From Odontocerum albicorne (lineage: Eukaryota > Arthropoda > Insecta > Trichoptera > Odontoceridae), in contig OX463849.1 in the NCBI GenBank assembly GCA_949825065.1, positions 39,523,852-39,587,851 of the forward strand: 64,000 nt of DNA, written 5' to 3'. Both the position numbers and the translations under genes were made by a program. The notes beneath the pieces were generated by a model. The model searched no databases and was not told the origin of the DNA. It saw only the letters and a list, made by a program, of their open reading frames with translations. Below are positions 6,638-44,463 of the stretch, in pieces (the first letter of the stretch is position 1; each line of letters begins with the position of its first letter).

Positions 6638-6774
6638 TATCTAATACTTGCATTTATTATTGAAATATGTGATTTTTACTATCTTAACTTTCTTTTGTAA
6701 TGTGGAGATAGTTTCGTGCAGTATGTTTTGTTGAAATATTTTGGCATTTCTCTAAAATTTCCTTTTATTTTTAG

Positions 6775-18207: not shown

Positions 18208-18410
18208 TTATTCCTTTTTGGATGGCGGAACGAGATGACCCGGCAGTTCTGTAGGAAGGTCGTGACCGTCAATTTTGACCGCAATGAGGTGCATGGCGAG
18301 AGCAAACTCGTCAGCGTCCAGCAAACCGTCTTTGTCTATATCTGACAACTTCCATATTTTACTGAGAACAGACTGCGGGAGTTTCGACTTGACCATTTCT
18401 GATTTGGCAG
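18208..18410 (-). CDS. EHD/Past1 protein, terminal exon (C-terminal half of the EH domain)
   Basis: EHD proteins are dynamin-like ATPases that tubulate endosomal membranes and bind NPF-containing partners through a C-terminal EH domain. This last exon encodes about 68 residues, ends with a stop, and carries the second half of that domain. The Ca-binding EF-hand loop reads DIDKDGLLDADEF, preceded by the NPF-pocket helix VLSKIWKLSD and followed by the standard C-terminal end LVPPSKKE. The acceptor is CACAG at 18411-18415 on the - strand. The first two bases (CT) complete an Ala codon with the G left by 22057-22227, restoring ITG-A-AAKSEM as in other EHDs. No second copy of this exon was seen in the window. 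Confidence 0.95.
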
Positions 18411-18761
18411 CTGTGAAAATAAATAAGTAATTATTAAAATAGTTCGGGAGTAAAAGTATACAGATAAATACGAAAAAAGAAGAAATTTAATATTAGAGAT
18501 GAGATATGTATTAAACTTGGATAGATCATGTATGAAGAACACATAAAATCAAAGTTAAGTTAAAGACATGTATGTATTCAAATACTGAAAGCTACGGTGA
18601 TCCATTTTTTCTTCTTGCACATTATAATCATTTGGTTTGGTATTAATGATAATTACAAAAGATTTTTTCAGGGTATAGGTAAGAAATGTGTATTGTCACT
18701 CGGAGTTTCTCCGATGTCTATTATCATATGCCGATATTTAGAAGCTTTTGATAGGTATATA

Positions 18762-19932
18762 CAGGTTGAAGATATTATTTTACTCTCAAATCTTAAGCAT
18801 TATATCACGCTTCTAGGTGAAAAGGTGTAACCCTCAATGAGTAAATTTAACAGGATGACCAAATAACTTCAATACTGTTAACATTAAAATCAGTTTGAAA
18901 TACACATATCATATATATCTCAATTTATGATTTGAATCAACTTAGACAAAACATTAAAATTTTTAAAGTAAATTGAACTTTATTTTTATTGCCCTGTTAA
19001 ATTAACTCAGTGAGGTTTGGTCCCTTTTGTTGGGAATGTATTATATTACATATACGAACATACATTTTTACTTTTTAAAATGTATGGAATGGAATAATTT
19101 GAAATTAAAAAAAAACATCTACAGGGTGTCCCGTATTGAGTGAATCATTTTTAGGGTGATAATAGATTGGGTCAAGACCTACCAGAATATCACAACTTGA
19201 CCTCAGTAAAAACCTTACCGTTTTTAAGTTCTTCGGACTTTTGTAAAATTAGCGTAAAATACCTTTCACTTGAACTTTAGTCAGAATCAGAATCAAATTT
19301 TGGAAATCATTTTGTATGCGATAGATAAGGCTACTATTCAAAAGAATTTCCTGATAAAAAAAATTTTCGAAAATGGTGATTTGTACACAAGGCAGCAAAA
19401 AATCTGATGCAAGGTAGGGATTTTACGAAATTTTACAAAATTCCGAATAACTTAAAAACGGTAAGGTTTTTACTGAAGTCAAGTTGTTATATTCTGGTAG
19501 GTCTTGACCCAATCTATCATCACCCTAAATATGATTCACTCAATACGGGACACCCTTAAGATGTTTTTTTTAAATTTCAAATTATTCCAATCAGTTGATT
19601 TCACACATTTTTAAAAGTAAAAATGTATGTTCGTATATGTAATATAATACATTCCCAACAAAAGGGACCAAACCTCACTGAGTTAATTTAACAGGGCAAT
19701 AAAAATAAAGTTCAATTTACTTGAAAAATTTTCATGTTTTGTCTAAGTTGATTCAAATCATAAATTGAGATACTCGTATATATGATATGTGTATTTCAAA
19801 CTGATTTTAATGTTAATTGTATTGAAGTTATTTGGTCATCCTGTCAAATTTACTCATTGAGGGTTACACCCTCTTGCCTAGAAGCATGATATATTGCTTA
19901 AGATATGGGAGGAAAATCATATCTTCAACCTA
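18762..19932. repeat. 1.17-kb foldback element (arms ~0.5 kb) in an EHD intron
   Basis: The left arm is about 18762-19264, the right arm about 19419-19932, with a roughly 155-bp loop. Matching landmarks are GGTTGAAGAT at both outer edges, GGGTGTAACCCTCAATGAG, TGTTGGGAATGTATTATATT, GGGTGTCCCGTATTGAGTGA and AACCTTACCGTTTTTAAGTT, each mirrored in the other arm. The arms differ by scattered substitutions and a few small indels. No ORF is conserved. It lies between the two EH-domain exons, so it is transcribed in the EHD pre-mRNA and would fold into long dsRNA. Confidence 0.88.
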
Positions 19933-20690
19933 TGCAATTCTATTATTTAATTTATTTTCATAACATTTTGACACTAAATGATTTTTCATCATATTTATAA
20001 TGGTTTCCACGCTAACATTGACTTCCAAGAAATTACTACTATACACCATACTTTTTTCTGTAAAGAATCTTTGTATGGGTAATCCACAACGCAGTTGTCA
20101 ATGAGACTAGATTTTTCCTCTCTTTCAGTAATTTTTTAGAGGGAGGAATAACTTTGGTAGTGCACTAACAACCCATCTGTTGTGAGACAGCCTGTGGATA
20201 ACTCAAATTTAAATATTCACTAGTCATAAAAGTCAGAAAAAAAAATGTTTGAAACTCTGGTTTCTTTACTGTCATTTGTCCTTCTGAATGTTTTGTTATT
20301 ATCTATTTATTCAAGTCCACATAAGGGTTATTTTAGTTTTTTTTTTAAGTAAACATGTCTGGGAAACGGGAAAATGTAAATAGGTTCATTATTGAATATT
20401 TAATATGCTTTGTTGGCAATTTTATATGAAGTAATGGTTGAGGTTGATTGTTTACTAAAAAGGTATAAAATAGTATTGCAAAAAAGAAATATTTCTATGA
20501 TTGTTTGTGTCTTAATAACTTAATTAGACCAATTTCTCTTTCAGAAATTAAATATTTATTATTTATATACACAAATTTTATTACTTTAGAGAAAAAGGTT
20601 TAAAATATTTTTAAACCTTTTTCGCTTCGCTTTAAGAAGCGACTGAAAAAACTCTTAATTTCTAGTCAGTAAAATAACGTGTTTCATTCC
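19933..20690. other. EHD intron, A+T rich
   Basis: Intronic sequence between the foldback and the SINE-tail element. The only structure I note is a short inverted repeat near 20600-20630 (AAAAGGTTTAAAATATTTTTAAACCTTTT). No exon is recognisable. Confidence 0.4.
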
Positions 20691-20970
20691 TGATTTTTCT
20701 TTTCCTTTCCTCTCCACCATCCTTTCCTTTCCTTTTGATTGATGATATCTCACTTTATATGAAAAATAGTGTTCGGGTGATTGTCCGTCTTTGTGGGGTT
20801 TGTGGGCATGTTCTCACGTATATGTTTATGGATTTCGTGGGGATGGATAGTCATTTGAATGATTTATGCGACCACGTAACTTGCTTCATTTACTTTTGTC
20901 TGGTTGGTTGGAAGAGATTGCCGCCTGGCAATAAGCCCGCCAGATTGTATTACAATAAAAGTGTTAAATA
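20690..20970 (+). repeat. SINE-family tail joined to a non-tRNA head
   Basis: 20896-20970 is the same tail as the SINEs (TGGTTGGTTGGAAGAGATTG, CCTGGCAATAAGCCCGCCAG, then an AAATAAAT run). The preceding 200 bp (GTGTTCGGGTGATTGTCCGT...) is unlike any SINE head here and has no pol III boxes. It may be the 3' end of the partner LINE whose machinery moves the SINE. Confidence 0.45.
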
Positions 20971-21370
20971 AATAAATAAAATAAAAAAGTACTAACCAAA
21001 TTATCAACATAGATTTATAACCACTGAACTGTAGGAAATTCCTGTAGGAAATATTAACAAGATTGATTGATGCAAATCATTATATTTGCGAGAGAGATGG
21101 TTGTAAGATTTAACCTTTTTTTACTGAGAACTGTGCCATAAAAAAATAATCAAGATCATCAATCAATCAAGATTCAAAATCCACAACATGGACTGACATT
21201 TAACTAAAAAAATTTAGCATTATTGAATTTAACAATGAAAACTGATAAAATATATCCTATGTTTATATTTACTAAAAAAAACAGATTACCAACCATTATT
21301 GTCAGCACTTGTTTATAAATGCTGTTAACCACCAATACTTATACATTAATAATATACGAAAATTAATTTT

Positions 21371-21523
21371 TTGTAATTTGTTTTATTAAACACTGTTTAT
21401 TCCACTTTATGTAACGGTATAAACCTACCGGTTTCAAGGATTTCGCCTCATCATCAGGGAGCACAAACAAACAAGCCATTACATAAAGTGGAATGAACAG
21501 TGTTTGATAAAACAAATTACAAT
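21371..21523. repeat. Short hairpin element (~45-bp arms)
   Basis: TTGTAATTTGTTTTATTAAA plus CACTGTTTATTCCACTTTAT is mirrored by ATAAAGTGGAATGAACAGTG plus TTTGATAAAACAAATTACAA. The loop is G+C-richer (CGGTTTCAAGGATTTCGCCT...CAGGGAGCACAAAC). Probably a small MITE in the EHD intron. Confidence 0.65.
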
Positions 21524-22056
21524 GTCTTTAAACCTCCACAATGTTAATGCCCTAACTATAAATAATATATATAATTAATTTTATTTTTGTGAAGAAACAG
21601 TGTTATATGACATTTTATGTATATTTTTATTATAGCACAAAAATACATGGAGAACTAAAATTTTCAAAATAGGTATTTTCTCACAGGCCTGTGTTTTAAA
21701 TGGTATTTAAATTCATTCAAGTCAATAAGGAAAATGGCATATTTACAAAAAGATAAGAATTAAAAAAAATGCTTATATTAAATATTTTTACTCATTCTAA
21801 ATTATTCTTTCTACATACCCTAAAAATCTTTTCACGAATTCTGATTGTAATATGTCGTACATATATACATCATATCATGATTCTCTTGGGATAGACAGAG
21901 AGGAAAAATCACAGTTTTTGTTTTGTTTCACATGCTCTTTTGTGTATTTTTTTGTTAACAAGGATTATAATATATTTAATATTCCAACTAATAACATTCC
22001 TTAATTTTTTTTGCATGAGCACAGATTATTAAATTTTCAATGAGGAATCTACTAAC

Positions 22057-22227
22057 CAGCTCCTGTGATTTTGCCATCGACAGGTCCTAACGAGTAGAAC
22101 ATATCGTCATATTTAGGTTTGTCTTTGTTGACAATCCATTCAGGATCTCCATGTCCTGCGTCCACTCCTTCTCCTCTCTTGTATCCAAATGGTGAGACTT
22201 GATCTTCGACTCCTTCAAATGCACCTC
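22057..22227 (-). CDS. EHD/Past1 protein, middle exon (linker and first half of the EH domain)
   Basis: A 171-bp exon between a TTTTTACAG acceptor and a GTTAGT donor. The first two bases complete Gly with the G left by either G-domain exon, giving IKG-GAFEGVEDQVSPFGYK. The exon then enters the EH domain: PEWIVNKDKPKYDDMFYSLG, PVDGKITGA. The N-terminal part is the linker whose GAF and PFG residues are conserved in EHDs. One leftover G joins CT of the terminal exon. Both borders are in phase, so the three-exon protein reads continuously. Only one copy is present, although two G-domain exons lie upstream. Confidence 0.95.
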
Positions 22228-22369
22228 CTGTAAAAAGTACTTAACATGTAATTGCTATCCATAATAACAGGTTACCAAGAAATTAATTTCATATTTCTCA
22301 GATAGATGTAATTTGGATTGCTAACTTTGTTCATTCCAAACGTGCTGAATGTATATTATTATGAAAATT

Positions 22370-22740
22370 TTGTTCATTCCAAAGTTGTTTGAGCATTATT
22401 TTTGGTGCCATTTTGTAGAGGAACAAAATAAGTTGTATTTTCAATGCTTCATGCTTTTTTACTATCGCAAAGGAAAAAATGCAACACAAACCAATAAAAG
22501 ATATGTACAGTGCATGTCAACGATTCAGTAAGCAATCGTGTTTGTAAAATGTGGTTTAATATTTCTGTAATGGTAACACTCGAAGATGATGTCCGCTCTG
22601 GAAGGCCAATTACCACTGATGAAGATCAAATGAAGGCTTTGATCGAGAATAACCAGCGTTCTACGACACGGGATATTACTGAGATACTGAAAATATCGAA
22701 AACTGAATTTCAGAATAAGGTTACATTTTAATACAAAAAT
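22370..22740 (+). pseudogene. Mariner N-terminal fragment
   Basis: Broken transposase start in two frames: FYYRKGKNATQTNKR (22460 region), then TLEDDVRSGRPITTDEDQMK and ALIENNQRSTTRDITEILKI (22580-22710), typical of the helix-turn-helix N-terminus of mariner transposases. There is no catalytic half. A related fragment, itself interrupted by a MITE, is at 60685-61080. Confidence 0.7.
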
Positions 22741-24500
22741 TTGTATCTGAATTTGACCTAAAAATACGAAATTACTTTCCAAACACGATCCAATAAAAAA
22801 TTAATTATTTTTCTCCCTTTGATATTCTTATGATTGTAGTTCTAAAACACTACATTACATGAAAAACATCAAATAAATACGAATACAGTAATCCCTCAAT
22901 CTACTTGAATTCACTTGAACGCAGTTTATTCTGTTTGAAATTTTAAATGCATAATAGTGACATCTATTAACTAATTATTTGGCTTTTAAATCAATATTTT
23001 TTTAAACAACTGTAAGAGCAACCACAGTAACAATAGAAGAGTGATTTTGAATAGATCAGTTCCTTTTTTTGTATAAATAAATAGTATAGCTTTCATCAAA
23101 ATGTATGTTTTATTAGTCAGTAATCACTTATATAGACTTAATAAAAACTAAATTAAAGTTATTTTAGCAAGTAAAATATGTAGAGAACCATCTTTTTTTT
23201 ACATAACACTCAATGCTTCCATTTACTATGTTTAAAATATCCTCCATAATGTACATTAACTTAGTTGTGACTGCTAACCTTTTAAAATAATATGTGGGTT
23301 TTTCTTAAGCAACACTATTGAATTTTTCATTTTATGTCAGAGGCAACATTATGTCACTGATGTCAATAGTTTAGAGAATAAATAGACTTGTAATTTATTA
23401 TTGGCATCCTAGATGTTAACAATCTTTCAGACATAATTTCATCTAAATTTGTTTAATGACCCTTATGAGCTGCCTTTTATAGCTGCGTTTTTGCCTCTTC
23501 ATATGCTGCACGTATTACCAACACATAAATGACGAACGGCAAGTCTGTGCCTACTTCAATGGTTCTAAACCCGAAGGCTCTCTTACCGAGTCTGAAGAAA
23601 ATATTGTCTTCTGGTCACACTCTTCAAAATATCATCAATTTGGATATGTTGAAGAGAAGAACCGATACAAAAGAAGAAATATGGTAGACTGATTGTCATG
23701 TAACAATTTTTTCCAACTAATAACAATTGTTTTGGGTACGATAAGGAATTAAACTCCAAATCCATGGGTTAATTAATAGATAGACCTCTTACTAACTAGG
23801 ACAGATACCATTCAATTTATTTAAGAAATTCCATCTTAATGTGAATAAATAGATAATATTATACATCGCAGTGGTCAAATTTTAAAATGAATAATAAAAA
23901 AATATTGCAGAGAAGTGAATGCAATGAGCATTCAGTTGCTTGAAAATCTAGAATGCAATCATCTCATTCAGCAGAATTCATGAAATGTGTGTAAATTGCA
24001 GGTAATTGCTTCAATTTCATGGTCAAATAAACATGTAGGTAGAACATTCACTCGCTATGACAAGTGCTTCTATAGAGATTTATCAATTGATTTAATTCTC
24101 TTTTATTTTTAATTTAAAAAATAATTGTTAAAAACCTTATTATAAAATTTTAAAATAATTTTCCATAACTGCAAAGGGAAATTTATTTCAAATGATTTCT
24201 GTGAACACAAAATATTTATATATAAATTATCTATTAATTGAGAAGAATCATACGATAAATTAATTTTATTTATTATTACACATGACAAGAAATATACACA
24301 ATTTGAGAAAAAACAACAGGTAATTTGATTTGGACATATAATTTTAATGGATCTGGGTTTGTTGCCTTTCATTTGTCGTATCCCCAGTAAACTAGGCTTT
24401 TGCCTGTATCTCACTGAGGATATTTAGCATGAAAAAATAAATCGATACTTCTTTCCGATTTTTGATAACACAAAAAACCCCGTTGCACGCTCTCATCAAC
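22741..24500. other. EHD intron with repeat R copy 4, a SINE and a pogo-like relic
   Basis: About 22886-22950 reads CAGTAATCCCTCAATCTACT, resembling a pogo/Tigger terminus. 23470-23665 is a copy of repeat R. About 23680-23815 is a reverse-oriented SINE, with the complement of the tail at 23700 and a relic B box AAGGAATTAAACTCC. The rest is A+T rich without coding potential. An open frame at 23583-23765 is a shadow of these repeats. Confidence 0.45.
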
Positions 24501-24980
24501 CTGACAAACAGTGACACTCAACTACAACTGGAAACATCTTGCGAAACTCAACTCCTCACACATTATCACTCCAGAAAGACCAAAAATATTCATCCCACAA
24601 TATACCGCACACAATCATAAGAATAAAAATCAAAACAAATCCAAAACAAAAAAAAGAAGAAAAACACACAGAAACACAAATACAAAAACAACCAAAATTA
24701 AAACAACAAGAAGAGACCCACACTCACGAGCTCACATAAATCCTTTCCACTCGTCATTCATCCTGAAAGCCCAAGTACTCAAAATCCTGTCGCAATAACA
24801 ACCACGCTCCGATCGACTGTCTAAATGGTTTTCCTACCTTTACTTTTATTGAAGTCGGCACGCCATTGTATGTAATGGGAGCCAAATAAGCATATTGCCT
24901 TTGGGCAAAAGAGGTTTTAACTCTAGGGATAATGATACAATATCTAGGATGGAAACCATATTGTTGAAACCTTTTATCAA
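24500..24980. repeat. A/C-rich low-complexity stretch and dispersed repeat
   Basis: 24590-24720 is strongly A+C biased on the + strand (AAAACAAAAAAAAGAAGAAA and similar), which creates long Lys/Thr/Asn-rich open frames with no family resemblance. 24715-24835 aligns loosely with 48690-48800 (AAGCCCAAGTACTCAAAATC against AAGCTCAAGTACTCGAACTC), so it is part of a dispersed repeat. I do not treat either frame as a gene. Confidence 0.45.
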
Positions 24981-25800
24981 GATTTTACCTACCAATTTAA
25001 ATATTTATTTTATTAATAAGAATTATTCGATACCTTTGTAATATATCGAAATTAAACACTGTAAATCAGTATAAAATATATTTTCAAATGCATGAATAAT
25101 AATGATACAATATTTATAATGGTTACTATCAAACTTGAATAATGTCATCTATAAGTTTTCACGATTCAAAATATTATTGAAAGATTTTGTAAAAGTTCTA
25201 CATAAATTTTGGTCAGAATTGAATATTTATTTTATTAATCAGAATTATCTAATATCTCATTAATAATGTATAAATATTAAATACCAAGAGAGCATAAACA
25301 AATAAGTGACATCTGAGAAATGAGAGTTTATGACAGTTTCAATTTCGTTGCATTTAAGATATTATTTTGAGGTCTGTATCGATTATGGAATAAATAAATA
25401 TTAGATATGTACAAAAATGTACAAATATTATTTGGGAAATTACATAATGACCTTTGGATCATACATAGCAGCCATAATTATAGGGTAAATTTCAGGAATA
25501 ATTATTGACAAGTAGGTATTATCAAAAAGGCAGAGGAACTAGAGAACAGATATTGATTGATATTACTCGTACAACAAATCATTAAGAAATGCAGAGAATT
25601 TAATTTGTTTCTCAATATCTGTTTTGTTAATTTCAAAATGAATAAATAATGAAGATGGTGCTGGAAAACTGAGACAAAAGCATGAGAGAGAAGAGCGAGT
25701 GGAAATTTAATATCAAATCCACTGATGATACTCGTACAACACTGTTTACTACTTTGGAATTTATCAGTCTCACTTTCGGCCTTGCAATAGATCAATAACA
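24981..25800. other. EHD intron, A+T rich, grading into a LINE remnant
   Basis: No gene seen. TACTCGTA occurs at 25564-25571 and 25729-25736. From about 25500 the sequence may already be decayed non-LTR DNA, but its reading frame is not recoverable by eye. Confidence 0.35.
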
Positions 25801-26610
25801 AAAAAAGGTGATGATAATAGACCGTGCAAATGAGAATCAACCAGACATTTTACAGATTGGTAACTGTGAAGTTGGTGAAAAGTTACGTCCACCTGGAATT
25901 TCTCATTTCAAACCTGGGTAATTGTGGGTACAAAATTCAGAGGAACGCAATGATTATACATGAGAAACTTGAGTAAATATTGCGTGTCAAAAATGTCATT
26001 AGGAACACAAAAATGCGACTTATGAAGTCCCTGGTATTCCCTATCTTTTTGTACAATGCCAAGATATGGATTCTGAAATCGAGGGATTACCAGAATGTTG
26101 AAATTCTTGAGATGTGGTACTGGAGACGATTATTCAGAGTACCCGTTGGATAGCATGACAAACTAATGATTCAATACTATCGAAATTGAATATAATAGTC
26201 TATCATCGACTGCTCAGTAGCCTATCATCGACTGCTCAGTAGCCTATCATCGACTGCTCAGTAGCCTATCATCGACTGCTCAGTAGCCTATCATCGACTG
26301 TTCAGTAGCCTATCATTGACTGCTTAGTAGCCTATCATCGACTGCTCAGTTAAGAATTTTGGAATACTTCGGTTATGTTACCAGGGGTGAAGACTCAATG
26401 GAGACTCTTTGTGCAAGGAAGAATAGATCTAGTCAAAATGACACCACTCACTGCAAGAATGCTCTAGAGATGCTGGAACCGCACAAAGCGGAGACAAGTA
26501 ATCAGAACAGAGCCGGAATGAACATAACTCATCATAGCCCCGACCATTCTGGCAAGAGTGAGATGATCAAGAAGATTAATCTCGGCTCTTACATGAGTAT
26601 TAACGCTTGA
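25800..26610 (+). pseudogene. Non-LTR retrotransposon 3' coding remnant
   Basis: A decayed C-terminal part of a non-LTR ORF2. It begins IDRANENQPDILQIGNCEV, continues LMKSLVFPIFLYNAKIWIL and EILEMWYWRRLFRVPV, then LRILEYFGYVTRGEDSMETL after the minisatellite. The order and motifs match the region after the reverse transcriptase in insect non-LTR elements. It has stops, frameshifts and an internal 22-bp repeat expansion at 26196-26349. It lies in the large EHD intron. Confidence 0.78.
26196..26349. repeat. 22-bp minisatellite, seven copies, inside the LINE remnant
   Basis: TAGCCTATCATCGACTGCTCAG is repeated seven times head to tail with three or four substitutions in all. The final copy runs into a retroelement reading frame, SSTAQ-LRILEYFG, so the repeat unit derives from that coding sequence. 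The period is not a multiple of three. Confidence 0.9.
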
Positions 26611-26619
26611 TCATTGGTC

Positions 26620-28200
26620 ACATTTTTTTTTCGTGAGAATTGTCGATAAGACTGCTTTAACTAGATTCACAAATTTATTAATAAACTGCTGTGCAGTTTG
26701 GCAAATGCTAAATTAAATAAAATTATGTATTCAAACATTATTAAACCGTGCATATATTAGTATTTGTGCAAAAAAAGTGTAAATCTCTATTGATTTATTA
26801 ATGAATGATAATCAAGGTAAATTAGTAAAAAATATTTTTCATAATAAATTTAAAAAAATATTATTAATTTAATTAAAAACAAAAATGTTCATGGTTGAAA
26901 TATTACATAACGGAGAAATGCAAGTCACCTTTGTATAATTATTATTTATATTGCTCTCCTATTAAATCTGTTTTAAACTATTAAAAGTTTAAATAAACTT
27001 ACTTCAAATACATTTTAACCCGTAATTAAGAATATTGAATTGAAATTGTACTAATGAGCATTTTAATACTTCAAAGCTGTGACCAAACTAGCTCCTGAAT
27101 CTATGGCTATTGTTATTGATTATTTTAAGGGCATTGGAGGATTAACTGGAGTAAACTAAGAGTTTTATTTGCGAATATCTGCGGACGGATTAAGAACATC
27201 AAAAAAAAAATTGAATTCACACTCTTCTTAGCCTACGACCCTATGGACGAATACAAATGATTTAATGATAGTATGGTAATTTATCCAATCATTTAAATAG
27301 ATACTTGCACAAATTCATTGTTACTTTCCTTATTTCTACGGTATCAAAGCACACAGTTGGATATCTGCTACTAAATTGACAAAACATTCATTCATCTCCT
27401 AGCCTTGAAACCATCCAGTACTCGTACCCGCCCACTTTGGAGTATAACTAAGCCCAATCATATCCAACTCTAGTCCATGCTTGAATATTACAAATTGAGG
27501 AAATCATTCTGGGTGATATTAGATTTTCAATTTATATACATTAAATAACGGACCGATTGATTGATTAGAGTAGTCAAGTATATCTAGATAAGGGTTATCG
27601 GGGATAATAGTATTATCTATAAACGGCAGATATTAAATTATGTAGAACATTCAATGTGCAAGCAAAATTAATACAAATTAACTTTATTCCATGAAACAAT
27701 TAAAGTGTAGATTTCTTCAATACTTTTTAAGAGTGATACAGTCAAATATTATTACTTATCTTTCTGTAAGGATAAAGTTTAATTAAACGAATAATGTAAT
27801 ATTTGAACCAAAGGCAAATGAAGGTGAATTGTATATCATAGATTTTTATAGATTTTTTTTCTGTATGTGGTTAAAAGGATACAGAGACGTTCATAATGCC
27901 AAGGTTATTTATGGGTAGATTGATATTTGAAAGCATTGATTTACAGTCACAGTATATTGGAGTCCATGCTGGTTAACACAATCAACTCACAATGAAGTAC
28001 TAAATGAATGGAAATCGGCTGGACGTTGCATTTGTGTATTGCCTTACACAAAAGCATATTAGCACTGGAATAAGCTACATGATTTGTAGTAGGTTTGTTA
28101 GCAATTTGGGGTCAAAGATTTATGAAGTTGCGAGGAATATACACGTATAGAAAGATATTTTTAGGTTGAAAGTATTCATATTAATTTAATATACTGTGTG
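26620..28200. other. EHD intron, no feature recognised
   Basis: A+T-rich intronic sequence. TACTCGTA occurs at 27419-27426. No reading frame, repeat end or RNA gene could be supported. Confidence 0.35.
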
Positions 28201-28750
28201 AATCAGATATGGAGGAAATAATCTGGAAAAACCTGTTAATCTAACAACCAGTTCCTTGTGGGGTAGGCAGAGAGAAGGATCTCCACACATCTATTATTTG
28301 TGCTTCTTACTTTCCCTTATTTTATACTCCAATCAACTTGATCCAACCGCCTCAATTTTCCTCTACTCCATACATAATGCATTTCAAGATCTATATTTGT
28401 TTAGACATTATTTCTTTCAAAACAATCAAAATTTTTCTTTCTTTATTTTACTAACGACATACCCTTCTGCCAAGCATTAATTTCTGATTTCCTCATTCTT
28501 TCTCCTTTCTTACATAGACAAATTCACATTTTCACAAATGCATCTTGCTTAATGTATATATTTGATTTTGATCAAATAAATATATCAAGGTCGATATATA
28601 TTTCATTGGTTCTATTTTTCATAATATTTTAAACATCTCTAAATGTAAAGTGTTGTAATAAGTACCAAGCAAAGCTTCACCCGAGATAAGGACTACATTT
28701 TTAATTGAACGTAAATTAGTTTTGTAAATAACGAATAGGGATTAAAAAGC
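28200..28750. repeat. Probable retroelement 3' fragment
   Basis: CCTTGTGGGGTAGGCAGAGA at 28255 resembles CCTGTCAGAGTAGGTAGAGG at 46540 and CCTGTTGGGGTAACCAGAGA at 61095, each followed by pyrimidine-rich sequence. The three are probably copies of one repeat end, likely non-LTR. The pyrimidine-rich open frame at 28256-28480 is not a gene. Confidence 0.4.
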
Positions 28751-28806
28751 CTAATATGTAATAGCATCAAATATAAAAAATACAACAATTCTAAGCACAG
28801 ACAAAC

Positions 28807-30031
28807 CTTTAATATGTAGATCTATAGTAGTTTGCTTTTCCTCAATGGGAATTTTGGCCATCAACATAGATATTTCATTAGATAATACAGAATCGACAAC
28901 TTCAATAAGTCTTTCTTTTAAAGGATTAAACTTGGAAAAATTTTGATTCATTAGGTTTTCTTGCATCTTCCTAATGTCTGGGAAGTCTCCGGGTGAGATG
29001 TGATGCTCTTTTTGGATCTTATCGTAAATTTGGCCGAGATTTTTGATGAGCTCTCTTTTTTTGGAGTCTTTGCCAAAAACAGCCGGCATATCTTTTTTCA
29101 ATTCCGATATAATATAAGCGTTAACTTTGGCTAATCTAGCTCTCTTGATAAGATCATTCAACTTTCGAAGTAGAGCGTTTCTCGGTAAACTTTGTAAATC
29201 CTTAAACAAGTCGTGTTCTTCATCTTCAAAAAGTTTTCTGTTCATATCAAAGCGCAGTGGCTGATCCCAAAAAGAACCAACATACACTCGAGCAACCTCT
29301 GGGGTCTGTAGAACTTTACCTAAAGACCACATTAAAGCTCCGTAAACTTTCATAAGTTGTTGATGATCAACCATATCTGACTTATTCAAAACTATTCGAA
29401 TTTTATCTTCGTGTCCATGGAGAGCTTCAATAGACCTTCGGAATTCATCTGATATATCTAATTTATGAGCATCGAATAGGAGAATAATTCTATCAACTCT
29501 CTCGGCAAACCACTCTAAGACACCGGTAAAATCATAACCTCTATCGATTCGTTGCTTCTCTCCTGACAAAATACCAGGTGTGTCGATGATCGAGATTCCT
29601 TCAAGAACTGGTGAATTAAGAGTGGAGCATTGAAATCTATTCAAGAAAGCATTACCAAATTTGCTTAACGGTTTGAATTGCTTATTAGGATCCACAACCA
29701 AAGCGTTTCCAGGTATAATTCCTTCTTTCTGATCGTACATAACAGCGATAAATCTATCGGTTGTCGGTTCAGGTCCAATTCTGATGCCTGGGAAATCTCG
29801 TTCTAGGAGGTATTTGATAAACGTAGTTTTACCAGTCGAATACTGTCCAACGAGTAGGATCATAGGTTTCGCATCAAAATCTGGATCTTCTAGCTTGGGC
29901 GAATGGAAATCGTGAAACTGGTAGTGAGTCTCTAAAGGTAGTATTTTCGTTTTGTAAATTCTTTTAAGTCCTTCCACGACATTTTCAACATATTCTTCTT
30001 TATTGGTAGATTTCGACATCCAACTAAACAT
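28807..30031 (-). CDS. EHD/Past1 protein, alternative G-domain exon A
   Basis: One exon encodes the whole N-terminal helical and dynamin-type G region of an EHD protein, about 408 residues starting at MFSWMSK. Visible nucleotide-binding motifs are the P-loop GQYSTGKTTF, the switch I Thr in GPEPTTDRF, the DTPGILSG motif, and LNKSDMVD as the NKxD specificity motif. The helical part includes RLAKVNAYIISELKKDMP and EHHISPGDFP. The exon ends ATTAAAG/GTTTGT, leaving one G, and so is in phase with 22057-22227. By eye it is about 84% identical in protein to exon B but heavily diverged at third codon positions, so both copies look old and selected. The ATG matches the usual EHD start MFSW. No further EHD exon lies between A and B. 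Confidence 0.93.
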
Positions 30032-32006
30032 TTTGAAAAACTTAAATATAACTTAATGTCGGCGTATTGTATCGAACTATTCACCCACACTCAATCTTAC
30101 TCTTCGGCACCAGACTTCACGTTAAACTACTAGGCTATGCAAAATAAAGACTATGGGTACCTAATCTTATCTAACACCAGATATTTCCAAACATTGAGGC
30201 ATTATTTTTTTCGTTTTGTACAAAACTTAAAATAAAATAATAAAGCCTTCACTATAAATATTTTAACAAATGTTTACTAGAAAGCAAGATAATAATTGTA
30301 TATATTGCGGTAATGAATATAAAAATATGCAATTTAGGTAATATACAAGGGAACAAAAATGTATATACTGATTTCTACTAAAAGTGATTTTAACATATTT
30401 AAATTCTCTACTAGTGTGAATAGCATACCCAAAGAGTTTGTTATATATTTACCTTGCATAGTTTGTAGTCTTGAAAGAGAAATAGAATCTGGTAGAAAAG
30501 AAATATTTTTCTTTATTTTCTTTATTAATTAAAATGAACTAAACTGACGATAAGTAGATTGAAAATAGATTATTGTGTGACTTAAATAAATAGTAGGTGA
30601 ATAATTCATTGGACTTTATAAACATCAAACAGAAAGATGTAAAGATATGTAAAAAAAAATGTTTAATGAAATATATTTGCATTTATTTAAGGATTTTTTG
30701 ACTAACTATTTTTCTTTGTAACGATTACTAATTGTGAGTTTTTTGCCATGCAGAAATTACATACCTATAAATGATAGAAAAAAATTAAAATAAACTATTA
30801 ATTCTTACAATTTACTAAATAATGCACAAAGTATTCTGTGAGTTCTTGTAAGATAAAAAAAAAAATTATCATTTATTTTAGTTATGTTATTACTTTTCTT
30901 AAATTCGTGTATAATTTTACCATGGTAAATATCAATATTCTACCTTTTATCGAAAATCGCAAAACAACACTCACAACTCATTCCACAAATTAACACTAAA
31001 ATAGCGTGCCCATGACTGTCAAACTAAAGAGTGGAAAGTGGTGCAATGTGTTATAAATAAAACTGAGAGAATGCCAAGTGTTGCCAGAGAACAACTTATG
31101 ACAGAAAATAATAAGCTATTATGACATTCTTAAGAAATTATTTTATAAAAACGTTACTTATTGTTGCAGTGTTCAGATTTGATAATCAATATGAACATGT
31201 AGTTCGATTGTTTAAATTTGTAGTTCGTTTGTTAAAGTTGTAGTTCATTTGTTTAAATTTCAGGGCACTTGTTACTTCTGTTATAACATTTTATGAAAAT
31301 TGCTATAAAGTTTGTTTTATTTTATTTAATTAGCTTTCAATTAACCTGTCCATTTTATACCCTCGAACTGATGTGTTTTTCAAGTATCCCTTCTTACATA
31401 GTGTGCATAATTTTCACACTAATTTAAATGAATTCTTCTTATTGTATGACTCATACTCTCTTTCTAAATTAATTTATTCGCAAATTACAAATTCTTTCCT
31501 AAAAAATTCTTAAATAATTTACCAAGATTATTTATACAAGGTCATTAATATAATTTTCTTTTACTTTGTTATTGGTATAAATTATCATTATAACGGATAC
31601 ATTGCCTTATTTACAAAATAATAACTTGTCTATATGTTTAAGTTGTTTGTATGATATATGTGTATGTTGTATTTAGACAAATTTGGAAATAATTACAGGT
31701 GATTTCGAAATAAAAATAACATTTATATAAAGGATATTTTTCTATATAGAATGAATACAGACAAAATCATAGGTATCCTTATACCACTGAAAACTAAATG
31801 AAAGAATGTTTTCATCAGGAGACTTTCTGTACAGATGTCTAGTGCAAGGACGCTGGTCTTCTACTTAGAGGTTTTAAGTTTGATTTTTGATAGTAAGAAA
31901 AATTGTCCAAGTTGGGCTCTTTTATGACCAAGCCTTTAACAAGCTTCTGTAAGTAGATTGCATTGTATATAATAAAATAGGCATTCTGTCAAATGTTTTA
32001 ATCTTA
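30032..32006. other. Sequence between EHD exon A and a mariner
   Basis: A+T rich. The first 150 bp upstream of exon A on the - strand would hold its 5' untranslated region and promoter if A is a first exon; no TATA box is convincing. At 31200-31260 TAGTTCRTTTGTTTAAATT is repeated about three times. About 31840-31930 is a degenerate + strand SINE. Confidence 0.4.
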
Positions 32007-33234
32007 TCAGGTGTACAAATAAGCCACCGCCGTTTGACAAAAGTTGACACCACCAGTAAGTTATGGTTAAAATTGTCAGATGTAAAACGTCATTGTTGTA
32101 AGGTTGGACATCTGTCAACAACATAACCTTGAAATATTAGTGAATTTTTATCAGTATAATATATTCTTTTGTGTGCGAAAATGTCAAGTTTTGAGCCGAA
32201 TAAGCGTCATTTGCGGGAACTTTTGATTTCCTTCTTCAATTTGAAGAAATCTGCAGCAGAGGCGTATCGATTGCTTGTAGAAGCATATGGTGAGGCTGCC
32301 TTAAGTGAGAGAAGTTGTCGTGAGTGGTTTCAAAAGTTTAAGAACGGTGAATTTGACATCGAAGATAAAGAACGTAGCGGAAGGCCGAAAGTGTACGAAG
32401 ACGCGGAATTGGAAGTATTATTAGATTAAGATTTGTGCCAAATGTAAGAAGAACTTGCACTTACATTTGGAGTGACTCAACAAGCATATGAACTGACACC
32501 GAGAAACGTTGAACGTCAATTTTCTACATGTGAAATGCTGCTTGCCAGGCATAAACTAAAGGGTTTTCTGCACCGTATAGTCACTGGTGATGAAAAATGG
32601 ATCCACTATGATAATCCAAAAAGGATGAAATCATGGGGACCCCCTGGCCATGCTTCAACATCTACGGCTAAGCCAAATATTCATGGAAAAACACTCTTGT
32701 TGTGTATTTGGTGGGATCAGCTTGGTGTCGTGTATTATGAGTTGCTCAAACCCGAAACCATTACTGGGGCTGCCTACCGAACACAATTGATGAGATTGAG
32801 TCGAGCACTCAAGGAAAAGCACGCCCACTACTACTCCAGACATGACAAAATTATTCTCCTGCATGATAATGCTCGTCCACATGTTGCGGCGCCGGTCAAA
32901 ACCTGTTTGGAAACACTCAATTGGGAAGTTTTACCCCACCCGCCATATTCACCAGACATTGCTCTTTCTGATTTCCACTTGTTTTGATCGATGACGCATG
33001 GCCTGTCTGAGCAGCACTTTACATTATTTGAAGATACCAAAAATTGGGTCGATTCGTGGATAGCCTCAAAAGATGAAGCATTCTTCCGACGCGGTATCCG
33101 TATGCTGCCAGAAAGATAGGAAAAAGTAGTGGCAAGCGATGGGCAATACTTCGAATAAAACATGAGGTTCCGTTCTTTCACAATAAATGCCCAATTTTTG
33201 ATAAAAAACGGCGGAAACTTATTTGTACACCTAA
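32007..33234 (+). mobile_element. Mariner element with T(C/T)AGGTGTAC termini (dead)
   Basis: A 1228-bp element flanked by TA. The left end TCAGGTGTACAAATAAG and the right end, reading inward TTAGGTGTACAAATAAG, are inverted repeats. The transposase starts at 32181 with MSSFEPNKRHLRELLISFF and has the helix-turn-helix part EAALSERSCREWFQKF. A stop at 32427 and a deletion of the second helix-turn-helix region follow. The catalytic half from 32472 contains VTGDEKWIHYDN (first Asp), LLHDNARPH (second Asp) and PPYSPDIALSDFH (third Asp). Two further stops follow. It resembles the mellifera-type mariners. All three acidic residues are still visible, but the protein is broken. Confidence 0.92.
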
Positions 33235-35636
33235 TATATTATTTTATTTTAATATTTTCAAGTAAATACACGACAGATTTATTGATTTAAAGCCATTTCT
33301 TCTAATCAACCAGCTTCTTATATCTATCCATGAGCATGTCTATCTCATATTTATGTTCGTAACATTTAAGTTGTTAATAGTATAGCGAATGGGTATTAAA
33401 GGGGAAATTAAGCTATATTGAAGTGCTTTTAGCAAAATGAATATAACTTTCAAAGGTCATTCTGCTCAGTCTTGAGAGGAAAGTGTTCTATAAATGCATC
33501 TTGTATTTAATGATATTAAATGGAAGACAATGAATTAATTTAGTAAGGATATAAGTAGACGGAGTTATGCTTTGGGCTATGGAGAAAAACACAAATGGCG
33601 AAACCAGAAAAGATCGTAGAAATAACAGAGGTTGTTGAAATAATAGTTCAAGTGAAATTAGTGAAAATTAGTACTTAGTGTAATTGTAATTGGGCTATCA
33701 TGTTGCAAGAATACAGGATTAATGATGAACAAATACTGTAATTCAATAATATCCCCTTAGCAACAGAAGACTAAAAATGGCTGATATTATTCCTAACGAA
33801 TAAAGCTAACGCTAGAAGCAGACCCTCTTTGTGTAACAGCAGAAATCCATGCAAAGTGGATAAAAAAAAAAAGATGCCACAAATGTCCCTAGATTCCATA
33901 GTGAATATATCGATACATTCTAGGTAAAGACCAAAGCCATCATCATACAAATTGACAAGAGAGACAAAAAACAAAAACATACTTAAAGACTAAATTATTT
34001 GAAACAATAGTGTACTATACATTTTTTCCTATTAAAATTCCACAATAATGGTTACACCTTTATATCTGGTATGCATTAATATAAGTAATAAAATAAATAA
34101 CATATTTATATTATATACTTAACAGAAAGCATAAGTAATTCATTGTTAAAATTAAACGTTTTGAAAAACTAAACATCAGTTTGAGGAACACTGGATCAGC
34201 TGAATTTAAAATAAATGTGTTGGGTGCAATATTTCTCACAAGTTCATCTTACATTTAATAAAATGATTAGGCACCATTAAGTCAATAGAGACACTCAAAC
34301 ATCGTCCAATGTACTTAACGCATCAGCAATCATTTGATAACTTATCAATAAACTATTGCTCACTTCTTCGCAGTTCAGAAAAAATCAAGATATTTTCAAG
34401 GATCTCATCAAGAAATTTTAATAAGGTTACTAGAGCACTTCACTAATTGGTTTGTATTACGTAAGATTTATTCAAGCATGGCTGGAATCATAGATATCAT
34501 GAATGTCTTCTGAAAATGAGTTCACAGGGTGATCAATACTTGATTCAAAGAATTAATGAGGTTGCAATTCAATTCCCAGACCACTTCCGATTTTAAAAAA
34601 GGAATCATTTTACAGCAAAGTAAAAAAATTAATTGGTTATCGGTGGTTTAACGTGTTCCCCGCGGGGAGCACAAACGCCTGTGATCTGACGACAATCCAA
34701 GTTTCAAATCACAAATACTTAAAAAAAATGACACAAAACCGGAATAAAAATTGAACTAAAATTTAAAATAATCTTTATTCTAGCGACATCTCTGAAAACC
34801 TTGTCAAATAATATATTAGTTTATGAGATATTGTTGAATAAACAGAGCGCCTAATTTTTTTGGTTTCTCAATATTTCCAGCATTAACGACCTGTCGCGCG
34901 GATCGAGTCCTGCGATGAGTCTCTCTTACGTAAATAAACATTACTAAGTCTCTCTTACGTAAATAAACATTACTAGTGCTATATGCATTTGATTGGGTGA
35001 GTGTCATGAAGCATTGATTTGATCGTAGCATTCCTTTGTTTATTTTACGTAATTTTAAGTTTATCTCCTTTATTTAATGAGTCTCCTTAAGAGTAATGAC
35101 TATTATTTATTATCAGAAAATTACTTAAGTGTCATGTTTACTTGGTGTTGTAATCAAATATCAGTGGTTCTAAACAAAATATGTGTTTAAACTTAGAAAT
35201 TAAAAAGCGCTGAAATTGTGCCGCGCGCAGGATTCGTGGAATTTGATTTTTAACACGGTGAACAGGTTAAGGAAAGGAATGTTTATCTGCATTATCCAAT
35301 ACATATGTATTAAACTAAACATAACTATGTGGACAAAATAATTTTCAGAATGACCAAGTGAGCGAATAGGTGAGGAATCCTGGGAACAATCTCCCATAAC
35401 AGATCTGCTGAGTGTGAAAATGGCATTCCTGACTGTTAGGTGCTTGGGGAAATATAAAGTGTCAAAAGTATGTACAAAGTACTTTGTCAAAAGAATGCTG
35501 ATCTGCGGTCAATGGTGGGTACTATTAGATATCCCCAAGACATAGGAAATGTTTGACGGAGGTACTCTGACTTTTAATGGGACTCCCTCAGTTGGATATA
35601 GAGGTCCAGTGGTGCACTATGATTATTCTCAGTAAG
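33235..35636. other. Large EHD intron, small repeats only
   Basis: No exon recognised. About 34643-34670 is a near-perfect G+C palindrome (GTTCCCCGCGGGGAGC) in otherwise A+T-rich DNA. 34917-34974 holds two tandem copies of a 29-bp unit (AGTCTCTCTTACGTAAATAA...). About 34880-34915 and 35215-35240 contain CpG-rich islets (CTGTCGCGCGGATCGAG; GTGCCGCGCGCAGG). Confidence 0.4.
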
Positions 35637-35830
35637 GAACACCCTCAATGGTCTAGTTGGTAAGACACCTGTCTTTCAATCTGGGGGTTGCGGACTCAAT
35701 TTCCGTTAGTACCAGATTTTTTAAAAAGGATTTGAGTCTATTTTTCACTTAAGGCTTTTTAACACCTTTTTGGTTTGTTGGAAGTTATTTCCACATGGTA
35801 ATAAATCCACTAGGTTGTACTGTATACAAC
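35637..35830 (+). repeat. tRNA-derived SINE, divergent head
   Basis: The head is CAATGGTCTAGTTGGTAAGA (A-box-like), then TGCGGACTCAATTTCCG (decayed B box). The tail is TGGTTTGTTGGAAGTTATTT, ATGGTAATAAATCCACTAGG. It has the same tail as the other copies but a different tRNA-like head. Confidence 0.65.
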
Positions 35831-36899
35831 GAAAGTGTAATATAATACAAGGGTCTGCCTGCCTGCCTACAAGGATAGTTTGTTTATGGCTATAGGACCT
35901 TTAATGAAAAACTTTTTAGCTTAAATCTCCCTTTGCCCTATTGGAATTTTTGAAACCTGCCATCTGGATTAATCCGTTGATCACATTTTGTGGTACCGCC
36001 AGGCTTTAAGCTACTTTCATAGTGCATTTACTGTACTGTGAGTTATTTTTCTTTTCTCGTGATTTTGGACCTTAAATCCATTATCACTGCAATTCTTTCA
36101 AAGTCTGGTGTGTCGCCACTGGAGAACTATCTTTGGGCAGTTTTTCTTTATTACTATGTGACGTCTTTCTCAAAAAATACAGAATATTTCGATTTTTCAG
36201 TGTAGATTGATTGTTTTTGTCCTTCATAACAGTGTGGGTGGTGGTAGAATCCAACAGAATCTACTGATATATTTTTAAGACTGATAAAATAATATTGATT
36301 ACCAAACTGTGTAAAACCTATGTTTTAAAATAATCTTTTTTAAAGAATCAATAAGTCAAATTGATTTTTTAATAATTTTTAATAAAACATGACCTTCATG
36401 AAATTTAATCCTTATATTAAAGGTTAAAATTTATGAATGTAAATAAGATTATTTTTGTGAAAAAAATATTGTTGGAATTAGTAGATGACTTATAAGTATT
36501 GTAAACACAGATTTAATTTCAAATGTGGAAATCAAAAATAAAATTCAATTTTATTTCCTGAATGTAAATGATAAATGAATACAGCATAAATTATGTTAAC
36601 ATATTATGATTTTGAGAAATATGTTACAACAATAAATTAATCAATAACTAAGTCTGTCTTGCTTATTATAAGTACTCGTATAATTTTCATCTTGGTAACA
36701 GTACTTAAATAATGATTTTCAATATTAATTTCTTAAAACTCTTTATTTTATTTCCAAGTTAGTAAGAGAATGTAAAATGATTATTTTTCTTAAGTTGGCA
36801 CTGATTTATATCAATCAATTGAAATTTCATTGCCATAAAAAAAATTTGAATTAAGAAAAAGAGTATTCTCAAAGAAAATATTCAACAAAAGTAAGTTAC

Positions 36900-38124
36900 C
36901 TTTGATAGTCGGCTCGTTCAACGTATGCATCTCCTCTTGAGGAATCATATCCATTAGGTGGGCAATGTCATCAGCCAACATCTTGTCAACAACTTCGAGC
37001 AGTCTTATTTTCAATGGATTGAATTTCGTGAAGTCATGGTGCAATAAAGACTCTTGCATTTTCTTAATTTCGGGAAAGTCTCCGGGTGATATCTGATGTT
37101 CTCTCTGTATCTTATCATATATTTGTCCAAGATTCTTGATCAATTCTTTCTTTTTACCTTCTTTGCCAAAAACTGAAGGCATATCTTTGCGTAGTTCAGA
37201 TATGATGTATGCGTGGACCTTGGCTAGTCGCGCCCTCTTAATGAGATCATTTAACTTACGGAGGGCAGCATTTCTGGGCAAACTCTGCATATCCTTAAAT
37301 AAGTCATGCTCTTCATCTTCAAATAGTCTTCTATTCACATCATAGCGGAACGGTTGATCCCAGAAAGATCCAATATAAACTCTAGCTACTTCGGGAGTTT
37401 GTAAAACTTTACCTAGAGACCACATTAACGCTCCATACACTCTCATTAGTTGCTGATGATCCACCATATCTGATTTATTTAAAACAATTCTAATTTTATC
37501 ATCATGACCTCTTAAAGCTTCGATGGATCTCCTAAATTCGTCAGATATATCCAATTTATGAGCATCAAATAAAAGTATAATTCTGTCCACTCTTTCAGCG
37601 AACCATTCCAATACACCAGTAAAATCGTAGCCTCTGTCCACTCTTTGTTTCTCTCCTGAGAGAATTCCAGGAGTATCTATGATGGAAATTCCTTGTAAGA
37701 CAGGTGAATTCAAAGTGGAACATTGGAATCTATTAAGAAATGCATTTCCAAATTTGCTCAATGGTCTGAATTGTTTCTTAGGGTCGACAACCAAAGCATT
37801 GCCTGGAATGATACCTTCTTTTTCATCGTACATAACCGCAATGAACCTATCGGTGGTAGGTTCCGGTCCGATTCTGATTCCAGGGAAGTCTCGTTCCAAT
37901 AGGTATTTAATAAACGTAGTCTTACCAGTGGAATACTGGCCGACAAGAAGAATCATCGGTTTGGCATCAAAGTCTGGATCTTCCAATTGCGGTGAATGGA
38001 AGTCGTGGAATTGATAATGGCTTTCCAATGGTAATAATTTCGACCTGTAAATTTTTTTAAGTCCCTCGACGACATTGTCGATACTTTCCGTCTTCGGAAT
38101 TTCCTTTGATAACCAACTAAACAT
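36900..38124 (-). CDS. EHD/Past1 protein, alternative G-domain exon B
   Basis: This exon encodes the same region as exon A, about 408 residues from MFSWLSKE. Motifs are the P-loop GQYSTGKTTF, GPEPTTDRF, DTPGILSGEKQR, LNKSDMVDHQQ and EHQISPGDFP. It ends ACTATCAAAG/GTAACTT, leaving one G, and joins 22057-22227 in frame as TIKG-GAFEG. That matches the usual EHD order better than exon A does, so B may be the ancestral partner. An in-frame ATG 34 codons upstream (38226) would add a charged extension. I prefer 38124 because EHDs begin MFSW and exon A does too. To join the EH-domain exons, its transcript must skip exon A across a 14.7-kb intron. Confidence 0.93.
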
Positions 38125-38400
38125 ATTGGATAAACTTTCGAAATACTGCTCTAATTTGACAAATGTTTGACGTGACTCAACAATGTACGTACGTTCGTTT
38201 ACTGTTGTTAACTTCAGATTAGTCATCCGTCAATATCGCAAACTTCATACCGTACAATTGGGCGTTTACGTGCAGTATCTACTCACGGCGTCGATTAGGA
38301 TTGCCAGAAGATGCCAAATAATCTTGAGGGTAGAAAACATTACATTAAGTCTATTTATGTGTTGTTTTAAAGAATATTAGTCTTATCAAAGTTTTCAGTC
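38125..38400 (-). promoter_or_regulatory. Upstream region of EHD exon B
   Basis: More CpG-rich than its surroundings (GACGCCGTGAGTAGATACTG, ACGAACGTACGTACATTG on the - strand). It would hold the 5' untranslated region and promoter of the B transcript. No TATA box or initiator can be assigned with confidence. Confidence 0.3.
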
Positions 38401-38434
38401 ATATATATATTTTTTTTATTTTAATTATTTTATG

Positions 38435-38490
38435 TACATGGTACATCTGGCGGACTTATTCCTATACAGCAATTCTTTCAAACCAACCAG
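38435..38490 (-). repeat. SINE tail fragment, minus strand
   Basis: On the - strand it reads AGCTGGTTGGTTTGAAAGAA, TATAGGAATAAGTCCGCCAG, matching the conserved SINE tail. No head is attached. Confidence 0.55.
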
Positions 38491-39146
38491 CTTATCTTAG
38501 ATGCATAAAATTACAAAACTCGACAAAATAATGGCAAAAGCAGAGTAAAGGAATTCGTTCAAGGAAAAGGAAGAGAAACGAAGAAAAAATAGTATGAAAG
38601 GATATTCTGAGCAATGTAATAGTTTTTCAATTATCTCTTAAACTTAAATAAAGATGATGCACATCTGATAACTTTTAAAAGTTTATTCCACAGTCACGTT
38701 AAGTTAGTCACAAATGAAAATGTGTAAAATGAAGTGTGTTGCGATGGTATGCAAAGGAGTCTCTCATCACCTGATCTGAGAAAACTTTCGTGTTTTGAGT
38801 GAAAGTGAAATACGCAAAATAAACAAAAATAAATTTGAAGGTTTCTTTGCTGTCTGACTTTAAGTCATTGAAATCTATTTCGAAACTTTGATACGTGGTC
38901 ATACTTCTTTAGATTAAATATAAATCGGAAACAAATGCTTTGGAGTCTCTTCAATTTATCGAATATCTCCATGACATTTAAATATAAATATTTGATGTTT
39001 GATTAGTTCACCGACATGTTTATCCAAATTAAAGTTATCAATACATATGTCAAAAACATCAAGCGTTATTTAAATTTCTTGTTTATAAATAGATAATTAA
39101 TACATTACTTATCTATTTATGAATTATTTATTATAAATAGATAAGT

Positions 39147-39735
39147 ACCTAATTTTTCAATTGTCGAACGTTGATTTTTGTTGTTTTCACTCAAAACATG
39201 TGGAACCCAAGCGCCGAACTTCTGGACTTTTCCTATTGATTTAAGATGGCGGTATACAGTCATGTGGCTACAATTCATCTGCTCAGCCAATTATACGGTG
39301 GTTTGAAGTGGATATTCATGAAAAATATGGTTTGAGCGGTCCTCACCGAAGTCCACTGGTCGTCCGGAACGCTCCATGTCTTTCAGGTCGAAATTACCGT
39401 CTTTGAAACGCAAAAACCATCGACGAGCTGTCCTTTCATTCATAGCATATTCACCGTACACTTCACAAATATCGCGAGCAGCTTTGGCAGCTTTATTCCC
39501 TCGATTGAACACGAACAGAAGAAAGTGTCGAAAATGCTCACTTTCGTCTACTTGACATTCCATTTTGAAGGCTTGTAATCAAATAAAATAATATACGTAA
39601 CGTAAAAGCAAACACAATTTCTTGTAGAGCAGAAAATTTTCTTTCGAATGACGTATAACCTTTGCCATTTTGTTTTACTTTTGGTGCTCATTTTTAAATT
39701 GGAAAAAAACGGACACAACTTATGTTAACACCCAA
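39147..39735 (-). pseudogene. Mariner 5' fragment, minus strand
   Basis: The element starts at 39735 with TTGGGTGTTAACATAAG next to TA. The transposase N-terminus is ESEHFRHFLLFVFNRGNKAA, NERTARRWFLRFKDGNFDLK, with a further block downstream reading NCSHMTVYRHL and KFGAWVPHVLSENNKNQRST. The sequence stops near 39147 before the catalytic domain. This N-terminal layout is common to mariners of the mauritiana type. Confidence 0.78.
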
Positions 39736-43812: not shown

Positions 43813-44463
43813 CGAGGCATATCCAGAAAATAAGTGTACTGAATTTTTGTAGGTTACAATTTTTTTTTTATTTAAACAAAAAAATTACGTGGTTACCGTA
43901 GTACATATGTAAGCTATTTTTCGACATAGTCGCCATTCCTCCGATATCCGAGGGTTTCTGTGATGGTTTCGTGTAGTAGAGATCTGGAGATTTGCGGAAA
44001 CATCGCAGAAAGTTCATCCACAGTCAATCTGCGATCGTCACGGAGCGCATTTTCGATTTTTTCCACAATTTCGTCAGTCACAATTGAAGGTCTTCCGTTC
44101 CTCTGATCATCATGCACAGACGTACGACCGTTTTTAAACTCGCGATACCACTTGTACACACTCGTACGATTCATAGCTTTATCACCATATGCAGTTTTCA
44201 CCTCATTATAAACCTCAACCGGAGGTTTTCCCTTCCAAACGAGATTACGGATGACGCCGCGTATTTCGCACTTGGCGGGAGATTGGATTGACATTTTTCA
44301 CGAAACGTGTTGTCGCGTCGACACTTCTCAACGTACTGACCTCGAACCGGTCTCGTTGCGGAGGGGAAGGGTCAGGCTACACGGAAGTGTAGCCAACATG
44401 TCGAAAAATAAAATTCATCCGGTCGTGAGAGCCTCAGTACACTTACTTTCTGGATACGCCTCG
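43813..44463 (-). mobile_element. CGAGGC-ended mariner, deletion derivative keeping the DNA-binding half
   Basis: A 651-bp element flanked by TA, with inverted ends CGAGGCATATCCAGAAA and TTTCTGGATACGCCTCG. The - strand frame 44294-43914 encodes a helix-turn-helix N-terminus (GDKAMNRTSVYKWYREFKNG, SIVTDEIVEKIENALRDDRR) and is open throughout. It then jumps straight to the last residues of the transposase, NGDYVEK. The whole catalytic domain is missing. Both ends are intact, so it could be moved by a full-length relative. The sister copy at 55892-56844 lacks the other half. Confidence 0.88.

Follow-up and report, generated by a model that had tools for sequence, protein, structure and literature searches.

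Here we describe a gene for an EHD protein, one of the conserved membrane-remodelling ATPases, that probably can be read from either of two alternative first coding exons. The gene lies in a 64,000-nucleotide stretch of the genome of Odontocerum albicorne (Trichoptera; GenBank assembly GCA_949825065.1, contig OX463849.1, positions 39,523,852 to 39,587,851), hereafter called the window. We propose that it is a variable-first-exon gene of the EHD (Past1) type, in which two motor halves share one set of EH exons, and we put the probability of this reading at roughly three in four. A switched motor half over a fixed EH half is the best reading because the two first exons, A and B, end alike in phase 1 and the assembly search gave only one EH set of the EHD type; on these grounds we uphold an earlier, sequence-only reading of the window, which had suggested a modular EHD gene with a switched ATPase and membrane-binding half and a fixed NPF-binding half.

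Layout of the locus and predicted products

The EHD locus is on the minus strand; on the plus strand, the intervals of exons A and B were full of stops. In the 5′ to 3′ order of the gene, its exons were as follows:

36900..38124, minus strand: exon B, the conserved version of the first coding exon; encodes EHD_N, a Dynamin_N G domain and a DUF5600 helical domain
28807..30031, minus strand: exon A, first coding exon, fast-evolving version; domains, length and phase as in exon B
22057..22227, minus strand: exon 3, predicted to be common to both; encodes the linker and the beginning of the EH domain; its acceptor, tttttacag, is phase 1
18208..18410, minus strand: exon 4, predicted to be common to both; encodes the remainder of the EH domain, with the EF-hand DKDG, and the stop

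Exons A and B were each 1225 nt long (408 codons plus one leftover G), and each began with MFSW and ended with IK-G followed by a GT donor (AAAG|GTAACT in exon B, AAAG|GTTTGT in exon A). The sequence-only reading had noticed that the IKG end and the leftover G suit the exon at 22057-22227. Indeed, that exon has a phase-1 acceptor (tttttacag|GA at 22227), and the predicted joins of A and of B to exon 3 were both in frame, giving ...IK-G-G-AFEGVEDQ and a product of 532 residues from either first exon. In protein models of other insects (P0019, P0026, P0050, P0066, P0067 and P0070, moth and leafhopper EHD models), short optional inserts were found exactly at the LIK/GGAF junction. Because gene models from other insects place small optional exons at this boundary, it was counted in favor of a shared exon 3. 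We also noted an in-frame ATG 34 codons 5′ of the MFSW of exon B, with the frame open between them (38226-38124, minus strand); a longer N-terminus for the exon B product is possible and would be unlike the relatives seen.

An arrangement of internal mutually exclusive exons, of the Dscam type, was considered and rejected, because A and B both carry the MFSW start found in relatives' models and no shared coding exon lies 5′ of them.

Pfam analyses placed EHD_N, Dynamin_N and DUF5600 over the cut-off in both A and B, as expected from the earlier claim that each encodes a full EHD N-terminal, G and helical region. EH was matched in exon 4, in phase with both A and B by joins predicted from phase; exon 3 on its own matched no Pfam family. 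The nucleotide-binding words GQYSTGKTT, DTPG and NKxD were retained in both copies, the last as NKSD, compared with NKAD in 134 of 135 aligned rows (the alignment is described below). The A product aligned with the solved EHD4 structure 5mtv across residues 17-531, and most of the protein matches listed spanned the entire query for either product. A and B differed at residues 116 and 120, which we take to lie in the KPF loop stretch; an altered filament contact is a lead here, not a result.

A single EHD-type EH set in the window and in the assembly

The assembly searched contained 1,287,057,991 bases in 1241 contigs, and the window was inside a 45.0-Mb contig. When the exon B peptide was compared with the assembly (E up to 10, best candidates scored), two matches were obtained, B itself (100%) and A (84%), so that no third G-domain exon was found among the candidates scored. 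Profile searches with EHD_N and DUF5600 returned the same two places. With the joined exon 3 and exon 4 peptide there were 14 matches, namely exon 4 (99%), exon 3 (97%) and 12 pieces elsewhere that were 27-50% identical. The EH family gave six matches, with exon 4 the best. Of those outside the locus, one was examined individually: a 50% identical match in a 521-residue open frame, in which EH is followed by a proline-rich and coiled-coil stretch. It was rejected as an EHD protein, and we take it to be REPS-like. Within the window, low-stringency tblastn with the exon 3 and exon 4 peptides, covering the region between B and A, recovered the known exons and chance matches only. The statement that the middle and EH exons exist in one copy thus holds in the window (by tblastn) and in the assembly (one EHD-type match each); a separate EH exon set for A or B, which the sequence-only reading had named as evidence that would speak against it, was found in neither.

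Age of the duplication and constraint on the two copies

Exons A and B differed at 64 of 408 residues, an identity of 84.3% where about 84% had been estimated by eye, and the differences clustered in the regions already pointed out (the N-terminus, about 365-372 and the last 25 residues), with bounds of residues 5-30, 359-366 and 381-406. At the nucleotide level, 302 of 1224 coding bases differed, distributed over the three codon positions as 59, 31 and 212, in line with the heavily changed third positions reported before. By the Nei–Gojobori (NG86) method, the proportion of synonymous differences (pS) was 0.84, beyond the method's correction limit, and that of nonsynonymous differences (pN) was 0.095. 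Moreover, 50 of 82 fourfold sites under unchanged residues differed, whereas complete randomisation would give 71%; synonymous sites are thus close to saturation but still short of it. The longest run identical between A and B was 14 nt, and their 3-kb flanks gave no convincing alignment (best E 0.008).

These divergence figures indicate that the copies have not been homogenised by gene conversion and, combined with the unalignable flanks, they leave next to no room for a haplotype duplicate. An assembly or haplotype artefact, for which we can cite only the general risk, is therefore extremely improbable; the window contained no N and lies within a contig of 45.0 Mb.

To provide a neutral control, 30% of the sites of exon B were changed randomly, which introduced a mean of 13.8 stops (minimum 5 in 500 draws) at about 43% identity. 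Low pN relative to pS over 408 stop-free codons, together with this control, supports the view that the duplication is old and that both frames have been kept by selection, as the sequence-only reading had proposed with a comparison of nonsynonymous and synonymous change as its check. The G domain held 14 of the 64 differences (0.22), compared with a mean of 0.23 in 5518 relative pairs of similar divergence, 43% of which were as low. Residues 341-399 of the helical domain held 23 of the 64, and 0.3% of pairs were as high, the interval having been picked post hoc and the pairs being non-independent. Special selection by region was rejected on these grounds; the differences by domain are otherwise as in EHD pairs of similar divergence.

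To compare the two copies with their relatives, an alignment of 135 rows was used (133 relatives, with P0002, a pseudoscorpion model discussed below, entered in addition as two halves; model P0001 was left out). All 135 rows matched B at more differing sites than A, and even the most A-like row favored B by 7. At sites where only one of the two carries the majority residue, A was the changed copy 35 times and B 8 times. Among the 200 columns invariant in the 133 relatives, A departed at 7 and B at 2, A218S in NKxD being common to both. B is thus the conserved copy and A the fast-evolving one. In a tree of 65 rows, hand-picked from 137, A and B were sisters (96/91), with end branches of 0.34 for A and 0.063 for B, about five times faster in A; the group that joins the two to fly and moth-like rows had support of 87/83 (not starred). 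Two rare residues were common to A and B, S218 (present in a single one of the 135 rows, half of a pseudoscorpion model) and H273 (in 2 of 135), as would be expected had the duplication occurred in this insect's lineage. In the approximately unbiased (AU) test, B was grouped without A in three arrangements: with the moth-like rows alone, with these plus the fly rows, and with all the others in a 31-row group. The p-AU values were 0.215, 0.215 and 0.205, respectively, none of which is a rejection. The tree thus favors duplication in this insect's own line, although the AU test does not reject an older split (p about 0.2) and A is a long branch.

The faster evolution of A also bears on the alternative that the locus is the remnant of a whole-gene tandem duplication, in which the EH exons of one copy disappeared and A is what is left of a gene in decay. 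The branch lengths fit a relic, as do a donor in A that looks weaker and the whole-gene tandem EHD copies that seem to exist in a pseudoscorpion. However, A has kept 408 stop-free codons despite near-saturated synonymous divergence, its nucleotide-binding words are retained, and tblastn of the window found no EH relic between or near the copies. We consider a decaying relic improbable.

Upstream stretches, splicing model and its alternatives

The stretches 5′ of the two first exons were as follows:

30032..30631, minus strand: upstream of A, presumed promoter and 5′ untranslated region of A; a possible acceptor, tattttgcatag, lies here some 100 nt 5′ of the ATG
38125..38724, minus strand: upstream of B, presumed promoter and 5′ untranslated region of B

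Given that each exon has its own start codon and no coding exon lies before either, two first exons with two promoters make the simplest model. One EHD (Past1-type) gene would have had its first coding exon duplicated in tandem long ago. Exons A and B would each be a first exon, most likely with its own promoter, and would use the common acceptor at 22227. In B transcripts, exon B would be spliced to exon 3, skipping exon A because the start of exon A has no acceptor; in A transcripts, exon A would be spliced to the same exon 3. The outcome would be two 532-residue EHD proteins that differ in their N-terminal, G and helical modules but have the linker and EH domain in common.

The same two proteins could arise from one promoter, if a shared non-coding 5′ exon were spliced to B or to A. 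The possible acceptor upstream of A would suit such an arrangement, but no comparable acceptor was seen before B by eye (acceptors were not scored), and we regard a single promoter as unlikely, though worth keeping in view. When the two 600-nt upstream stretches were compared, shared words exceeded shuffles at k 8 and 9 (reached by 6 and 4 of 200 shuffles, respectively), an excess that disappeared once A+T-rich words were excluded (see below).

A different outcome would follow if A (or B) also, or mainly, gave an EH-less protein by reading past its donor and ending within the intron. The frames are indeed open past the donors, to 28751 for A and 36811 for B, and AATAAA occurs 148 and 153 nt after exon B and ATTAAA 102 nt after exon A. 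However, the introns are 69-72% A+T, so that polyadenylation-like signals are expected by chance, and the conserved phase-1 end at IK-G indicates splicing. An EH-less product is, in our judgment, very improbable.

Several observations weigh against two first exons spliced to one EH set. The sharing of the EH exons by A and B is a prediction from DNA, made from splice phase and the single EH set. The donor of exon A, GTTTGT, deviates from what we take to be the usual consensus at +3 and +4; the exon 3 donor, GTTAGT, likewise has T at +3. The constraint figures cover the A-B pair jointly, not the A branch alone. Without A+T-rich words, a shared upstream motif of A and B was not above chance (at k 7 and 8, 67 and 27 of 100 shuffles, respectively, reached the observed number). 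Finally, the sequence-only reading had proposed to seek the paired exons in related insects; no A orthologue was present among the 120 listed of 6129 matches, where no relative was closer to A than 83%, so that these matches gave no independent record of an A-type isoform.

EHD genes in other species

The sequence-only reading had held that animals usually diversify EHD by whole-gene duplication. Vertebrates owe their several EHD proteins to duplication of this kind. The accessible part of a 2026 review (PMC13282721) agrees with this, but Drosophila Past1 already has two N-terminal variants, only seven residues apart (PMC5218476, available in part). Past1A is confined to testes according to the latter, whereas the review describes the male-specific fly transcript as the shorter one. 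In these portions of the two sources, Past1 resembles the present gene as an orthologous EHD gene with two transcripts that differ in N-terminus and tissue, one of them male- or testis-confined; it differs in that the fly proteins are seven N-terminal residues apart and a second G domain is not described.

Two further candidates for the same architecture were rejected. In P0001 (Heliothis virescens, 731 aa) an identical stretch is repeated, which looks like an annotation or assembly fault. P0002 and P0136, both from the pseudoscorpion Cordylochernes scorpioides, are gene models put together from parts of two EHD copies with 78% identity across the first 305 residues; their orders, a-b and C-terminal part-b, are better explained by tandem copies of the whole gene than by a shared EH set, and this species probably has whole-gene tandem EHD copies. 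Among 211 proteins, GQYSTGKT occurred twice in P0002 only, the P0001 repeat being without that word.

Comparison with variable-first-exon genes

As far as the available text of PMC1885805 goes, the vertebrate UGT1, GCNT2 and UGT2A genes have tandem, similar, same-length and same-frame large first exons that encode the N-terminal part, followed by one constant set, and arose by lineage-specific duplication with little conversion. GCNT2, for example, has up to three similar large first exons, each with its own promoter, and two constant exons. The EHD locus likewise has equal-length, same-phase tandem homologous first exons with their own start codons and one constant downstream set; it differs in having two first exons known from DNA alone, whereas in those other families promoters and transcripts are known experimentally. 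Among insects, Gr39a and Tribolium Gr214 combine long alternative 5′ exons with shared 3′ exons encoding the C terminus, but they are receptors, not a trafficking ATPase, and have four and 30 alternatives, respectively (PMC6307266, accessible portion). Human tandem duplicated exon substitutions are also old, constrained homologous exons used alternatively, with N-terminal swaps making up 40 of 236 events; EHD and dynamin are absent from the main text of that survey, as far as it was available (PMC9741552). The layout is thus rarer than ordinary and not unique, with precedents in UGT1/GCNT2 and insect gustatory receptors. No account of a variable-first-exon EHD gene was present among the EHD literature matches listed, most subscription journals being outside coverage; the gene structure is thus of a type already known, here in a family for which no record of it was found.

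If the motor half is swapped over a constant EH half, the locus would be a natural experiment on the role of each half, since any isoform difference must then come from the motor. It would be a natural domain swap in the dynamin superfamily through exon, not gene, duplication, and would bring to a general trafficking gene a layout known from genes for detoxification, adhesion and chemoreceptors. Alternative large first exons in such a layout can be overlooked or fused by gene prediction. Our guess is that the A isoform is expressed in a restricted way, perhaps in the male germline by analogy with the testis-confined Past1A of Drosophila, and that its contacts with membranes or within filaments are altered while its ATPase core is unchanged. 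Rather tentatively, selection might have split the gene into two motor modules over one unchanging cargo-binding module. In different tissues, with the male germline perhaps the site of A, the filaments made by A and B might then prefer different membranes, or the two might fail to co-assemble, although both would recruit the same NPF partners.

Other features of the window

A foldback of about 1.17 kb (18763-19931) lies in the intron that separates exon 3 from exon 4, and on the transcribed strand it precedes the EH exon by 350 nt; its arms are nearly 500 nt long and 92-95% complementary, with a spacer of 178 nt. The intron between exon A and exon 3 contains a 22-bp tandem repeat (26174-26372). 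Outside the gene, a histidine phosphatase (branch 2) exon was identified by Pfam at 6756-7043 (plus strand), and a frame at 668-985, which matched no Pfam family, looks related to it by eye. A mariner-type transposase-like frame lies between A and B (32163-32987; Pfam HTH_48/Transposase_1) and another at 43914-44297 (HTH_48 for 43914-44294). By eye, further mariner-like frames were seen at 3393-3761, 5343-6333, 39291-39578, 50333-50815, 52085-52888 and 56249-56758.

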